Assembly: GCA_025357895.1 (NCBI GenBank)
Contig: JANYLL010000373.1
Span: 1 to 33,663, forward strand
Direction: 5' to 3'
From: Ignavibacteriota bacterium
GTDB taxonomy: Bacteria; Bacteroidota; Ignavibacteria; Palsa-1295
DNA: 33,663 nucleotides
In this document: positions 6,091 through 31,109 of the stretch, in pieces
Layout: every line of letters begins with the position of its first letter
How positions within the stretch are numbered: position 1 is the stretch's first letter
Translations under genes and position numbers: made by a program
The notes under the pieces: generated by a model
Databases searched by the model: none
Seen by the model: only the letters and a program-made list of their open reading frames with translations
What the model was told of the DNA's origin: nothing

Positions 6091-7284
6091 ATGTACGGAA
6101 AAATCAAAGAAGAACTTCAGTCAGAATTACAATCGATTAAAGATTCAGGGCTTTATAAAGAGGAGCGAATTATTACCACACCTCAAGGTGTCGAGATAAA
6201 GGTTGAAGGAAAATCCGGCACATATCTTAATTTTTGTGCGAATAATTATCTTGGGCTGTCTTCTCACCCTCGTGTTATCAAAGCGGCGCATGATGCTCTT
6301 GATAAGCATGGCTACGGCATGTCCAGTGTCCGATTTATCTGCGGCACGGAAGACTTGCATAAAGAACTTGAATCCGAGATTTCAAAATTCTTGCAAACCG
6401 ATGATACGATCCTTTATGTAGCTTGCTTCGATGCGAACGGCGGAGTCTTCGAGCCGTTCTTTGCAGAAAATGATGCTATCATCAGCGATGAATTAAATCA
6501 TGCTTCGATAATTGATGGTGTAAGACTTTCAAAAGCACAGCGATTCCGGTATAAGAATTCCAATATGGAAGAGCTTGAAAACATTCTGAAAGAAACGCAA
6601 AATCTTAGGCACAGGATTATTGTCACCGACGGAGTTTTTTCGATGGATGGATCAATTGCAAAACTCGGAGCAATATGCAATTTAGCAGATAAATATGAAG
6701 CGCTTGTCATGGTTGACGATAGCCATGCTTCAGGGTTTATTGGCAAAACCGGCCGAGGCTCGATCGAGTTTGAGAATGTTATGGGAAGAGTAGATATCAT
6801 CACCTCTACCCTTGGCAAAGCTCTTGGCGGCGCAGCTGGAGGTTTTACATCGGGGCGTAAAGAGATAATCGACATGCTTCGTCAGCGTTCGCGCCCGTAT
6901 CTCTTTAGTAACTCACTTCCCCCTGCTATTGCCGGTGCTGCATTGGAAGTAATACGAATGCTGGGTGAGACAACGGAGTTGCGAGATAAACTCGAAAAAA
7001 ATACGAAGTATTTCCGTGAAAAAATGACAGCTGCTGGTTTTGATATAAAACCCGGTGTCCATCCTATAACGCCGATCATGCTCTACGAGGCACCGCTTGC
7101 ACAGGCATTTGCATCCGAACTTTTGAACGAGGGAATCTATGTGATCGGATTTTTCTATCCCGTTGTAGCAAAAGGACAAGCACGCATCCGAGTGCAAATT
7201 TCTGCCGGTCATGAACGTGAGCATCTGGATAAAGCCATTGCGGGATTTACGAAAGTAGGGAAGAAGCTTGGAGTGATTAAGTAA
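6091..7284 (+). CDS. kbl: Glycine C-acetyltransferase (2-amino-3-ketobutyrate CoA ligase) family
   Basis: 397 aa; [69 protein letters not shown]. Confidence 0.92.
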
Positions 7285-7351
7285 GTCAAAAGTAAAAAAA
7301 TCAAAAGACAAAAGTAGACTTTTTTGACTTTTGATTTTGAACTTTTGACTT
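7283..7351. repeat. Heptad-period A/T repeat folded as a long imperfect inverted repeat (possible bidirectional terminator)
   Basis: Outer arms AAGTCAAAAGT (7283-7293) / ACTTTTGACTT (7341-7351) are perfectly complementary; right arm reads ACTTTTG|ATTTTGA|ACTTTTG|ACTT (7327-7351). Lies between convergent kbl and comEC stops. Confidence 0.85.
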
Positions 7352-7358
7352 AATACTC

Positions 7359-22379: not shown

Positions 22380-22408
22380 GGGGTGTGGGGTTTAGGGTAT
22401 GGGGTTTT
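22380..22408. repeat. Heptad-period G-rich repeat at the 3' end of prmC
   Basis: GGGTGTG|GGGTTTA|GGGTATG|GGGTTTT (22381-22408), preceded by G at 22380. Confidence 0.85.
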
Positions 22409-23267
22409 CTTTTGCGATCATAACTCTTTCAATTCCTTGTAAATCCTTTACTTTCCCAACAACTTGTAACCCTGCATCAAAAAATATTTTTTCGACATGG
22501 TTGATGGCATTATAACCGATCTCCACAAATATTTTCCCTTCAGGCTTGAGTAACTTAGGAGCAAGTTCTGCGATTCTTCGGTAAAAACGCAAACCATCAC
22601 CATCATCGGTCAAAGCGATTCGCGGATCGAAGTCACGGACTTCCCTATCAAGCGTCTCAAATTCTTCTATGCTAATATATGGCGGATTGGAAACAAGCAG
22701 ATCGAGCGAAGATGGAAATCTTTTTGCAATATCATCATCAAAAATATCTGCGAGTTCAAAAGAGACATTCTCTGTTTTCAGGCGCTCCTTATTTTTATTT
22801 GCAAGAGCAATTGCATCGGCGCTAATATCGATTCCTGTAATAAGAGCCTGCGGAAGTTTCGATGCAAGAGCTAATGCAATAATCCCCGACCCTGTGCCAA
22901 TATCTAATATCCGACAATCGCCCATCGACGATCGACCATCGACTGCTTTCAAAACTTCTTCCACAAGAATTTCCGTATCGGGACGCGGAATCAGCGCAGC
23001 CGTTGAAGTAAATAAACGAAGTCCAAAAAATTCCGTCTCGCCGATAATATGCTGTAATGGCTCATGCATGAGACGACGGTTAACGAATTCATCGAAATTT
23101 ATTTCTTGCTCGTTTGTAAGAGGTTCATTGATATGTTTTTGCAGTTCACTTTTATTCCAGATTCCAAGGACGTGCAATGCAAGGTATTCGGAATTTATCT
23201 GTGCATCGGAGATTCCCTTTTCCGCGAATAGTAATCCTGCGTTGTTAATAGCTTCCTGCCAGATCAT
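22392..23267 (-). CDS. prmC: Peptide chain release factor N5-glutamine methyltransferase
   Basis: 291 aa; [59 protein letters not shown]; last residues NPIP* lie in the repeat at 22380-22408. Confidence 0.95.
22912..22945. repeat. Heptad-period repeat located inside the prmC coding sequence
   Basis: Minus strand reads GTCGATG|GTCGATC|GTCGATG|GGCGATT|GTCGG; CATCGAC at 22923 and 22937, CGACAATCG/CGACGATCG at 22912 and 22926, all 14 nt apart. Confidence 0.8.
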
Positions 23268-24604: not shown

Positions 24605-24660
24605 GTCGTCGTATTTTTTTGGTCTTTTCTGCTAAAGACTAACGACTAAAGACCAACGAC
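24605..24660. repeat. Heptad-period intergenic repeat with inverted partner
   Basis: TAAAGAC|TAACGAC|TAAAGAC|CAACGAC (24633-24660); TTGGTCTTT (24619-24627) complements AAAGACCAA (24648-24656). Confidence 0.85.
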
Positions 24661-24668
24661 TATTCCCG

Positions 24669-27398
24669 CTATTCCCGAATCTGCACCATTCGTGAGACTC
24701 TCTGCGTTGCAGCACCGGAATGGATAATAAACTCGGCCAGATAATTTCCGGTTGGTAAAGAATACACATCGAAATGCGTATAAGCGCCGTTCGTACCCAA
24801 AGGTATATTAAATTCCGAACGAACTCTTCTTCCTATAATATCTGTGAGAATTATATCCAGCTTTCCATTAGGGAGTATTTCCGGTGGATCAAGGCCAAGA
24901 GTGAGTTCTCCGCTACCAATTGGATTCGGATAGAGGATTATATATGAGTTCATCACACCAGGAGAATCAATTCCTGATAAAGAGGTATCTTTAGGTGTAA
25001 CGAAGACACCTTTTGGCAGGGCCATTTTTGTTGTCGGAGTAAGAAGGAGAAGATCTGCGCCCAAGCGGTATTCCTTGGCAGCGGTATCCTTTCCTAAACA
25101 TTTGAAAACGATAGTGTGGGTATCTTTGGTGAAAAAAATCGTATGGAGTTTCAGTGTGTCTGATGGACGTTCATATTCATCCCATGAATCAGCTGCATAA
25201 CCATTAAATGTCCCAAAATATTTTCCATCTACCGAATAAGTGAAATTTCCAAATTTTACACCAGCAGTGAGAACTACCCTTACATCAAAGGTATCGTTCA
25301 AGGGAACATAAAACTTAAAGGCTACTTTTTGATTCTCTCCTTTTGCTTCATATACTGCTATAGCTTGCTGGCTCCATTCTTCTCCCCAATCAGTACTCAA
25401 ATTTTTATAATAAAAAGGACCGTTATCGGCGTTAGCCCATGGAATAATGTCTTCGAATTCGTAGGGAATTATGCGGGTGATGGTAATAAGATCATTTGCT
25501 GTGCCATCATTGTGATGGTCACCAACAGCGCGGAGATGGTATTTCCAATCTGCTATATTCGGCATTCGGACTTTTGCATTAAAACGATAATCACGTCCTG
25601 TAACGATTGTATCAGTACCTGAAATCAGAATACTATCAAGAAATATTTGTACGTTTTCTCCTTGATCGAAACCTGTTCCGGTAACTAACAGTGTGTCTCG
25701 GTACCGCAAAGTTGTCGGCAGCGAGTCAACAATCGGTCGGATAGCAGAAGAACCAAGTATATAGACAGGTTCCGGGCGAACTTCATCATTTATTGATAAG
25801 GTTCTGGCTCCATAAATAGATGAGGGTTGTACTTCGAAATATGCATTGAATGCTCCGGAGTCATTTGCTGTAGTAGTAAATATTGTCTCAGTATTGTCAA
25901 ACTTTGCAATAATTACAGAATTTGGCTTGTACCCTGTTCCCGAGACATTCCATAGCTCGCCGCTCCTAATAGTATCACGAGATGTCCAAAAAGCCGTCAC
26001 TCGTTTATAATAATATGCAACCGTGCGAAAGTCTTCTTTGAGATCGGTAACTGTTCCGGGCTGTAGACTAAAATCGAAAGTCGTATTGAAATCAATTGCA
26101 TCCAAAATATGGAACCGATAAAAGGATTTAATAAAATTTACATGGCCTGAAAAAGGCTTGCTGAAAAGAATTCCCCAGAACCACCATGCTGAATTATAAT
26201 AATCTTCCCCACCTGTATATCTAAAGTTATTTCTTGAGGTGGAATCAACAGTAAAGATCGGATCCCCTTCAAGGACTGCACCGGTAGTATTTCGAGGGGC
26301 AGTAAAATATAAGCCGACATACCTGCCTTTACCACGCTCATGGAGAACCGGATGATAAATATGATAGTGAGTGGGATTTGATTCGCTGAAGAAGGCATGG
26401 AAATATCCATATTTACTTTTATCTATCGGCTCTTGAGAATAATTTATTTCCGTTTGGATTTGAAGGTCTCGTTTTGAAGTATTTTGTAATTCAATTCGCG
26501 CATTTACTGCAAAGGGCATTGCAAAGTAGGAAGTGAGTCCGCTTGAATCACGTCGAATTGCATACGATCTCACGTTAATTCCTGTATTCGATGAGCAAAA
26601 AAAATCTGATAAGGGAACATGCACCGCCGGATAAGGAGAATTATCCCAGTAGATATTAAGCGAAACTGAATCAAGTTGATCAAAATCATACGTCGGAAGC
26701 TTAAAATGCAATTTCTCTATCATTGCAGGTCCTTTAATATTACATAATGTTGCTTTCGTCCCGGCGATAAGTGAAGCGGTGTCAAAAAAATGAACGGGTT
26801 TTTCATTTTGCCACATAGGCACTTTCATGTCATGGATATTTTCGGCACTAATTTGGTCTTGTCTGTTCACAAAAGACTGAAGGGATCGAAAAGAAGGCAG
26901 AAGCGATGAATCTAAAACCGGACGCCAGGCAATTGCATAGTAAACAGTAATACCTGCACCAATAAAGGTTATCTTAAAATTCCTTTTATAAGGTAGCTGG
27001 ATATCGCATACTTTTGCTACCGGCGGATATGTTGTATCAAATGGTGGGCGGAGTATCCCATGAACACTGTCAAAAAAGGATGAGTAGGTGGAAGAAGAAA
27101 TAAGTTCATCATCAATATAAAGCTTAAAATTTGTGGTGGAATCAGGAATGTTGCTTACAAACCATATATGAGTAATAATCCCAGAACCACTATCTGATGC
27201 GAGAATAAAATTTCCATCTTGTGGATCACGTGCAGCTGGATAGCCATAACTAATTCTATATCGCAGCGGCTCACGATCAGGTCCGTCAAGCCTTGCGATT
27301 GCTCGCGGATCGGTCATGCGCGAATAGGGGTTTATTTGTGCCTCAGATATACTCCAGACACTGCCAATAATAAATATGCAATAAAAAGTAATTTTCAT
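24669..27398 (-). CDS. Secreted DUF2961 (GH172-like) protein with T9SS type A sorting domain
   Basis: 909 aa; signal peptide; SGSGIITHIWFV, YVGLYFTAPRNTTGAVLEGDPIFTVD, YTGGEDYYNSAWWFWGILFSKPFSGH, YRFHILDAIDF; C-terminus LYPNPIGSGELTLGLDPP. Confidence 0.78.
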   Translation of the reverse strand: MKITFYCIFIIGSVWSISEAQINPYSRMTDPRAIARLDGPDREPLRYRISYGYPAARDPQDGNFILASDSGSGIITHIWFVSNIPDSTTNFKLYIDDELISSSTYSSFFDSVHGILRPPFDTTYPPVAKVCDIQLPYKRNFKITFIGAGITVYYAIAWRPVLDSSLLPSFRSLQSFVNRQDQISAENIHDMKVPMWQNEKPVHFFDTASLIAGTKATLCNIKGPAMIEKLHFKLPTYDFDQLDSVSLNIYWDNSPYPAVHVPLSDFFCSSNTGINVRSYAIRRDSSGLTSYFAMPFAVNARIELQNTSKRDLQIQTEINYSQEPIDKSKYGYFHAFFSESNPTHYHIYHPVLHERGKGRYVGLYFTAPRNTTGAVLEGDPIFTVDSTSRNNFRYTGGEDYYNSAWWFWGILFSKPFSGHVNFIKSFYRFHILDAIDFNTTFDFSLQPGTVTDLKEDFRTVAYYYKRVTAFWTSRDTIRSGELWNVSGTGYKPNSVIIAKFDNTETIFTTTANDSGAFNAYFEVQPSSIYGARTLSINDEVRPEPVYILGSSAIRPIVDSLPTTLRYRDTLLVTGTGFDQGENVQIFLDSILISGTDTIVTGRDYRFNAKVRMPNIADWKYHLRAVGDHHNDGTANDLITITRIIPYEFEDIIPWANADNGPFYYKNLSTDWGEEWSQQAIAVYEAKGENQKVAFKFYVPLNDTFDVRVVLTAGVKFGNFTYSVDGKYFGTFNGYAADSWDEYERPSDTLKLHTIFFTKDTHTIVFKCLGKDTAAKEYRLGADLLLLTPTTKMALPKGVFVTPKDTSLSGIDSPGVMNSYIILYPNPIGSGELTLGLDPPEILPNGKLDIILTDIIGRRVRSEFNIPLGTNGAYTHFDVYSLPTGNYLAEFIIHSGAATQRVSRMVQIRE

Positions 27399-29882: not shown

Positions 29883-29895
29883 TAATAAATTTTTA

Positions 29896-29979
29896 GCTGG
29901 TTGCTGATAGTTGAGAGCTGATAGTAATAAACGAGTGAAATGACCCTATTCTATCAGCTATTTGCTATCAGCTATTTTT
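29896..29979. repeat. Heptad-period repeat in two inverted arms at the 3' end of a glycosyltransferase gene
   Basis: Left GCTGGTT|GCTGATA|GTTGAGA|GCTGATA|GTAATAA (29896-29930); right CTATCAG|CTATTTG|CTATCAG|CTATTTT (29951-29978); the arms are complementary (AGCTGATAG/CTATCAGCT). Confidence 0.88.
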
Positions 29980-31109
29980 TCAATTCCTTCAACAAATGTA
30001 TCCCAAGAATATTTCTTCTTTTCTTCGCGGACTCCGGCGCGTAATTTCTCTTCCAATGCTTCATTAAAAAAGTGCTCAACATCTTTTGCAACGAGTTCAG
30101 GCGTCGCTTCTTTTGTGATGATTCCGCTGATTCCGTCAATTACTACCTCAGAAAGTCCTCCGACATCGGTTGCAATAACGGGAACATCAAAATTATACGC
30201 GATCTGCACTATACCAGATTGTGTGGCAGTGCGATACGGAAGCACCACAACATTCGCAGCACTGAAATATGTTGCCACTTTATCATTTGCAATATAATCA
30301 GTTGCAAGAACAAGATTTTTTGCAGGAATTTTCAGATCATCGATTAGTTTTTGGTACTCTGCTTCGTCGCCGTAAAATTCTCCTGCTATGATCAGCCGTA
30401 ATTCAGGCAATGATTTTAAGAGCAGCGGCATTGCCCGGAGCAAAATATCCAAACCTTTATATTTTCGGATATACCCGAAAAAAAGGATTGCGGGAGCTTC
30501 ATGAGGAATACCAAGTTCTTCTCTGGCTTTTCTTTTATCTATAGACTCACCGAAGATCTGATAAATCGGATGTGCAAGCTTTATATATTTCGCATCGGGC
30601 TTTACAATTTTCAGATCACGTTCAACAGCATCGGATTGCACTATAAAATATTCTACCGCTTTGAATGCATAATTGGTAAATGCTCTATCTCCAAGACGTT
30701 TTTCATGTGGGATGACATTATCGGCAATGAATACGACTTTACATTCTTTTCCTTTTTTTCTGAGTACTGATTTCGCAACACGAGCGATCATCCCATAAGC
30801 GGGTGCAAAAAAAGGTATCCAGAATTTAAAGATGATCATATCCGGTTCAAGATCTGCAACCACTTTCCCCGCTTTACGCCAGGAAAAAGGATTGATTGAA
30901 TCGATAAGCTGAAGTGATTTAAGCGGCGCTCCTGCATCACCTTTTTCTTCTTGTGATTTTCCGGGGAAAAGTATTTTTGGATATTGACGTGAGAACGTCA
31001 CGACATGAACTTCATGCCCGTGCTTGATAAGCGCATCATGGAGGAGCGAGACGTAATGTGCTATTCCCCCGCGAAGAGGATATGCTGTGCCGATAATGAC
31101 GATATTCAT
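29958..31109 (-). CDS. Glycosyltransferase family 4 protein
   Basis: 383 aa; GTAYPLRGGIAHYVSLLHDALIKHGHEVHVVTF, AILFFGYIRKYKGLDILLRAMPLL, VIATDVGGLSEVVIDGISGIIT; C-terminal IADSK* encoded within the repeat. Confidence 0.92.
   Translation of the reverse strand: MNIVIIGTAYPLRGGIAHYVSLLHDALIKHGHEVHVVTFSRQYPKILFPGKSQEEKGDAGAPLKSLQLIDSINPFSWRKAGKVVADLEPDMIIFKFWIPFFAPAYGMIARVAKSVLRKKGKECKVVFIADNVIPHEKRLGDRAFTNYAFKAVEYFIVQSDAVERDLKIVKPDAKYIKLAHPIYQIFGESIDKRKAREELGIPHEAPAILFFGYIRKYKGLDILLRAMPLLLKSLPELRLIIAGEFYGDEAEYQKLIDDLKIPAKNLVLATDYIANDKVATYFSAANVVVLPYRTATQSGIVQIAYNFDVPVIATDVGGLSEVVIDGISGIITKEATPELVAKDVEHFFNEALEEKLRAGVREEKKKYSWDTFVEGIEKIADSK

Follow-up and report, generated by a model that had tools for sequence, protein, structure and literature searches.

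Tandem arrays of seven-base words have been described in several groups of bacteria. In Xanthomonas the word GGGAATC (and in Nostoc GGGGA(C/T)T) forms 7-nt tandem arrays that are mostly intergenic; the GGGAATC arrays of Xanthomonas are concentrated 0-50 bp from stop codons, which they can also overlap, and in 70-75 cases two convergent arrays form inverted repeats (PMC4692102). There is one G-rich word per genome in that system, G-quadruplexes have been proposed for it, and two related species mostly retain the arrays between the same genes. The P6b stem of the Nostoc trnL group I intron is built from heptads of Class I (TDNGATT) or Class II (NNTGAGT), and one word class has repeatedly been replaced by another with the fold kept (PMC4476775). 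Repeats of TAACTGA occur in Beggiatoaceae, Cyanobacteria and some Bacteroidetes; in Beggiatoaceae they use one word, lie just upstream of start codons and are nearly all direct (one inverted in 170; PMC4679880). Geobacter metallireducens carries arrays of GGGACCG among others (PMC2700814). Heptamer arrays as such are therefore already known; as far as we found, these four papers report neither many words per genome, nor a shared word order, nor the replacement of words at essential gene junctions.

The heptad arrays of an Ignavibacteriota genome (G000) described here resemble those of Xanthomonas in lying by or over stop codons and in forming convergent inverted pairs; unlike Xanthomonas, G000 holds many AT-rich words together, and these turn over between sister species. 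With the Beggiatoaceae repeats they share a near-identical word (TAGCTGA), stops in every frame, 7-nt steps and a patchy phylogenetic spread, whereas the pairs in G000 are inverted, anchored at stop codons and built from many words. Like REP/BIME elements they are short, dispersed, palindromic and intergenic, come singly or paired and lie at gene 3' ends, yet their units are arrays of 7-nt words instead of a fixed tagged palindrome. The closest parallel to the replacement of words that we observe between rpoB and rpoC is Nostoc P6b, which is a single locus in a self-splicing intron, in contrast to the many intercistronic sites, without an intron, in G000.

The window, i.e. the whole stretch of 33,663 nucleotides that was analysed, holds such an element at the 3' end of a gene for a GT4-type glycosyltransferase (PF00534/PF13692; 29958-31109, - strand). 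The next downstream gene encodes a methyltransferase (PF08242/PF13489; 29043-29882, - strand), and the 75-nt spacer between the two is filled by the hairpin. The original prediction of two arms, each with a repeated 8-mer at an equal 14-nt lag, is borne out by the repeat positions: GCTGATAG stands at 29903-29910 and 29917-29924 (+), and its reverse complement CTATCAGC at 29951-29958 and 29965-29972, with a lag of 14 nt in both arms. The ORF likewise reads as proposed, with the GT4 gene ending inside the right arm (ATA GCT GAT AGC AAA TAG) and its TAG stop codon (29958-29960, - strand) supplied by the array as the third TAG of the arm. The arms are indeed reverse-complementary (82% over 22 nt), but the central region between them measures 26 nt (29925-29950; a short inner stem is predicted in it) and not about 20 nt.

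Two 7-nt words make up the 14-nt lag, and the element is thus a heptanucleotide tandem repeat. On the GT4 strand the right arm (29951-29977, -) reads TAGCTGA TAGCAAA TAGCTGA TAG (TRF period 14, 100% match) and, with a TAG every 7 nt, therefore offers a stop in all three frames. The left arm (29903-29924, +) consists of three 7-nt words directed at the loop, GCTGATAG TTGAGAG CTGATAG, and at its outer edge an outlying TAGCTGG (29894-29900, +) stands in phase with the array, giving TAGCTGG TTGCTGA TAGTTGA GAGCTGA TAG; the pairing of the inverted repeat (I1) reaches this outlying word (24 nt, 75% complementary). TAGCTGA holds no G runs and thus differs from the GGGAATC word and its proposed G-quadruplexes, and the element does not lie in a group I intron as the Nostoc P6b heptads do.

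The arrangement was compared with shuffled sequence in several ways. First, the 8-mer occurs five times in the window versus 0.92 expected, a count that 0 of 100 shuffles reached, and four of the five occurrences fall within the GT4 element. Second, we looked for any 8-mer that is repeated within 120 nt together with its reverse complement, both at a common lag; the element was the sole match in the window, and the pattern was found in 0 of 200 dinucleotide shuffles of the window. Third, RNA folding, which had been suggested as a check, predicts about -28 to -29 kcal/mol on either strand (z -4.1 to -5.1, with -4.7 as the summary value), better than all 200 of 200 shuffles. No Rfam family was matched at the element, the sole Rfam match in the window being one tRNA. 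The description of the element as one array and its inverted copy proved accurate for the outer words of the arms, which pair, and inaccurate for the middle words (GTTGAGA versus GCAAATA), which remain unpaired in an internal loop, so that the mirror symmetry is incomplete. Moreover, the left arm is slightly nearer to its counterpart in the rpoB-rpoC hairpin of the same genome (20/22 identical) than to its own partner (18/22), and two convergent copies of a short dispersed element therefore explain the pair no less well than a simple inverted duplication would. Nor is the GT4 element the clearest example of its class, as had been claimed: the hairpin at L068:477-537 (about 30 near-perfect pairs) and a heptad-like palindrome of AAAAGTC words between convergent genes of the window (7284-7354) are cleaner.

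A scan of named genomes returned GT4 relatives mostly from Ignavibacteria/Ignavibacteriales, along with other Bacteroidota MAGs, and on these the description of the host as Ignavibacteria-like is based. The closest relative in our genome collection, a sister species of the same genus (G001) whose GT4 is 84% identical, has the same two genes separated by a 53-nt spacer without heptads, and its GT4 ends in GIEKIGNM* versus GIEKIADSK* in G000. Comparison of the GT4 C-terminus and spacer among relatives, another check suggested at the outset, thus recovered the gene pair but not the element, which was not found in G001, G002, G005 or G006, all of which have the same pair with plain spacers. Its absence from these four genomes indicates that the element is recent in this lineage and unconserved, and that it has altered the GT4 C-terminus. 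The GT4 copy may be neutral, as the relatives lend no support to selection for the hairpin at this locus; taken alone, the locus is an ordinary finding for this genome.

The element belongs to a class that is spread over the genome. We surveyed a 433-kb sample of G000, about 14% of this 434-contig draft MAG, using plain ORFs as gene calls, and counted 22 lag-7 arrays at a score that lags other than multiples of 7 reach 0-4 times; the excess was confined to lags 7, 14 and 21. The sister genome yielded 18 lag-7 arrays in 247 kb, and one turned up in 180 kb sampled from nine genomes that belong to other families of the class. When inverted partners were scored by local lag scoring, 14 of 32 lag-7 arrays in G000 had one within 150 nt as opposed to 2 of 32 in the matched control, and other lags gave 0 or 1, multiples of 7 apart. 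With the arms being imperfect, hardly any heptad hairpin passed a stricter scan for inverted repeats that used exact 7-mer seeds and a mismatch penalty of 2 and required full periodicity in both arms. The lag-7 excess and the inverted partners show that the supposed arm-loop-arm heptad loci do form a class, and one that stands apart statistically. Its arrays are mostly intergenic and sit at or just 3' of gene ends: the GT4 and rpoB stop codons lie inside arrays, the stop codon is supplied by the array in several cases, and many other arrays fall within a few nt of a gene end. At one convergent junction (L070:4479-4843) a heptad hairpin takes the place of the ordinary terminator of G001. The words vary between loci (TAGCTGA, TAGTCKT, AAAAGTC, GAATTGA, GGTGTTA, GAAGGAT and CGACCAT). 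Exact TAGCTGA arrays also occur in 14 of 297 Bacteroidota genomes, and no inverted CTATCAGC partner was found within 300 nt at those loci that were read.

Within word families the arrays follow a common word grammar, X-Y-X-X, in which the variant Y (TAGTTNN) takes second place and a fixed terminal word such as TAGCAGA follows. The order is common to different loci, to G000 and G001 and to separate word families, which argues that arrays were copied about and did not grow separately at each site. In the window, an array of TAGTCKT words at 24632-24662 (- strand; TAGTCGT TGGTCTT TAGTCGT TAGTCTT TAGCAGA) lies 8 nt past the stop of the ORF at 24669-27398. It alone among the window arrays has a counterpart in G001, a degenerate one at the corresponding position (TAGTCAG TGAGCTT TAGTCGT TAATCTA) that is the decayed form of an older array. 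Within prmC (22392-23267, - strand) an in-frame array of CGACCAT words (22899-22943) encodes a 10-residue loop directly N-terminal to motif I (LDIGTGSG); G001 prmC has no array there. A compound repeat, made up of a TAGCTGG array, then a palindrome (CCAGTGGGACGGACTCTTAGTCC...) and then, in G001, an inverted TAGTGGC array, is present in at least four copies in the G001 sample, with shorter forms in G000 (L100:11105-11263, L112:2279-2485, L115:3970-4174 and L101:11479-11612 in G001; L260 and L255 in G000). Two contigs of G001 (C134 and C20; L286, L287) terminate in or close to long (ATCGACC)n arrays, near-perfect and with about 8 copies or more, which probably break the assembly.

The second TAGCTGA hairpin of G000 (G000:C89:17570) begins with the rpoB stop codon and has its arms in the same order as at GT4. 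It reads TAGCTGA TAGTTTA AAGCTGA TAGCTGA TAG, followed by a short loop and the inverted arm. At the same junction G001 has TAGTCGT TAGTTTT TAGTCGT TAGTCGT TAG: the start at the stop codon, the number of words and the variant in second place are all equal, and the word itself differs. A heptad stem whose words are replaced at one locus, the hallmark of Nostoc P6b, is thus found at rpoB-rpoC, not at GT4. Throughout the family a hairpin is seen directly past the rpoB stop codon in the spacer to rpoC, with sequences that are unrelated, heptads in this genus and GC palindromes elsewhere, and the spacer folds at z < -2.5 in 11 of 13 family genomes versus 1 of 17 relatives from the class; ordinary same-strand gaps in the family reach this threshold in 19-30% of cases. 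Similarly, groES-groEL gaps fold at z < -2.5 in 6 of 10 family genomes (8 of 10 below -2) and in 0 of 6 outside the family, with z-scores taken from the whole gap, as the first 80 nt alone understate long hairpins. Here the words are TAGTCGT in G005, TAGTCTT in G006, TAAGTGC in G007 and TAGTGGA/TAGTTGA in G008; G001 and G003 have other heptads, G009 and G010 long palindromes and G004 none. These junctions were not picked blind, rpoB-rpoC having come from the array found there and groES-groEL from the neighbourhood of a transposase gene in G001, a choice biased toward this genus but not toward the remaining eleven genomes. Nor does the effect extend to every junction, since rpsL-rpsG lacks a heptad hairpin in most family members, and rpsG-fusA gaps were left out of the count as they mostly have ordinary terminators at their ends in the family.

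Two further features of these spacers were noted. The groES-groEL spacers of G001 and G002 (L289, L296) share an identical AT-rich heptad stretch, CATTTTACATTTTACATTTTTAATTTT, which is thus common to two genera and lies just upstream of groEL, unlike the adjoining fast-changing hairpins. The rpsL-rpsG spacers of ten family genomes (L333, L334, L327-L332, L340, L341, L346; alignment A1) contain a candidate structured RNA with the motif GGTGGTYGA...GATCAACTC and two helices in which 13 of 15 pairs show changes on both sides that preserve pairing; the loci tested had no Rfam match, and the candidate is possibly a ribosomal-protein autoregulatory leader.

We put at about even the chance that the GT4 feature is a convergent pair of dispersed heptad-word repeat copies forming an mRNA stem-loop at the stop codon. 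By this account, a dispersed repeat unit of about 22-30 nt, with three or four words of the TAGCTGA family, would have landed between the GT4 and methyltransferase genes, or grown there, at the cost of the last GT4 codons, and the GT4 transcript would fold into an imperfect stem-loop at its stop codon, one of many post-stop stem-loops in the genome and family that derive from heptad words or from other palindromes. From folding predictions and position we infer that the class would most probably serve as intercistronic or 3'-end mRNA stem-loops. Such a structure might hold back 3' exonucleases, define a site of processing or uncouple the translation of two genes, and between convergent gene ends the heptad hairpin could stand in for a terminator. 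Any such action on RNA, and any effect at GT4, would have to be deduced from these predictions. At rpoB-rpoC and groES-groEL, and at these two junctions only, the folding statistics suggest selection on the fold. Tentatively, and at somewhat less than an even chance, we propose that a post-stop stem-loop is kept there as a structure and that its sequence is replaced wholesale between species from a dispersed lexicon of heptad cassettes (TAGCTGA, TAGTCGT, TAGTGGA, TAAGTGC and others) with the shared X-Y-X-X order, selection acting on the hairpin and not on its letters.

The alternative that fares best, possible though again short of evenly probable, is that the repeats are neutral, generated by replication slippage in 7-nt steps plus inverted (template-switch) copying and tolerated in spacers and gene ends without any function. 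The GT4 element, missing from all four relatives with the same gene pair, is what one would expect from such a process, as are the single, degenerate G001 counterpart among the window arrays and the arrays within genes such as prmC; heptanucleotide SSRs are, moreover, the commonest long SSR class in many bacteria and are credited to polymerase slippage, according to work cited in PMC4679880. Neutral decay would not, however, predict hairpins of unrelated sequence at the same pair of operon junctions in almost every family member, unless the two sites happen to be hotspots for insertion, and a word order with Y in second place that loci have in common speaks for copying over fresh growth of each array.

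An intrinsic (Rho-independent) terminator of GT4 or of an antisense transcript is very unlikely at the GT4 element, even though the stem-loop lies directly past the stop codon, the genome has many ordinary terminators and the right arm is adjoined on the + strand by a T6 run (29975-29980). Read in the direction of GT4, the stem is AU-rich, not GC-rich, an internal loop interrupts it, and the sequence after it is AACCAGCUAAAAAUUU instead of a U tract; the terminator scan calls nothing there, and the next gene is co-oriented and begins 75 nt on. We therefore rejected a terminator on this strand. The T6 run is the coding sequence for Glu-Lys-Ile (GAA AAA ATA) and is missing in G001, so that it does not represent a designed antisense terminator, and this candidate was rejected as well.

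Comparably improbable is mobilisation in trans of a REP/BIME-type element by a Y1 (RAYT) transposase. The short dispersed repeat, single or in convergent pairs, is REP-like, RAYT-size Y1 proteins are encoded in G001 and most family members, and TAGCTGR arrays adjoin a palindrome family (AGTGGGACGGAC...) in both G000 and G001. Against this, G000 (draft, 92.6% complete) has 0 matches to PF01797 (Y1_Tnp) versus 2 in G001, one G001 RAYT is flanked by its own unrelated REPs (GCCCACNATT...) with no heptad arrays of these families, and neither a target-site duplication nor a clean empty site was seen at the GT4 locus, where the G001 spacer is too diverged to align. With no PF01797 match in G000 and REPs of a different family beside the G001 RAYT, mobilisation by RAYT is not supported. 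At L266:1940-2700 in G001 the REP pair GCCCACCATTGAAATGGTGGGC / GCCCACGATTTTAATCGTGGGC is present in several copies after a gene for a RAYT-size Y1 transposase. Least credible of all is that the arrays are bound by a DNA- or RNA-binding protein reading 7-nt repeats, as hypothesized for the Beggiatoaceae repeats (PMC4679880). TAGCTGA differs by one base from their TAACTGA, and its exact arrays recur in 14 of 297 Bacteroidota genomes, but a sequence-specific reader would not tolerate words that vary by locus within a genome and that change at a given junction from one sister species to the other.

Heptad repeats have so far been reported piecemeal, in cyanobacteria, Xanthomonas, Beggiatoaceae and Geobacter, and there is no agreement on their origin and role. 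The many words of this genome, its inverted pairs at stop codons and the swap of words at rpoB-rpoC between sister species separate two entangled questions: where sequence is interchangeable, function, if any, lies in the fold. Such a genome also provides a natural set of ready replacements for probing the role of intercistronic stem-loops.
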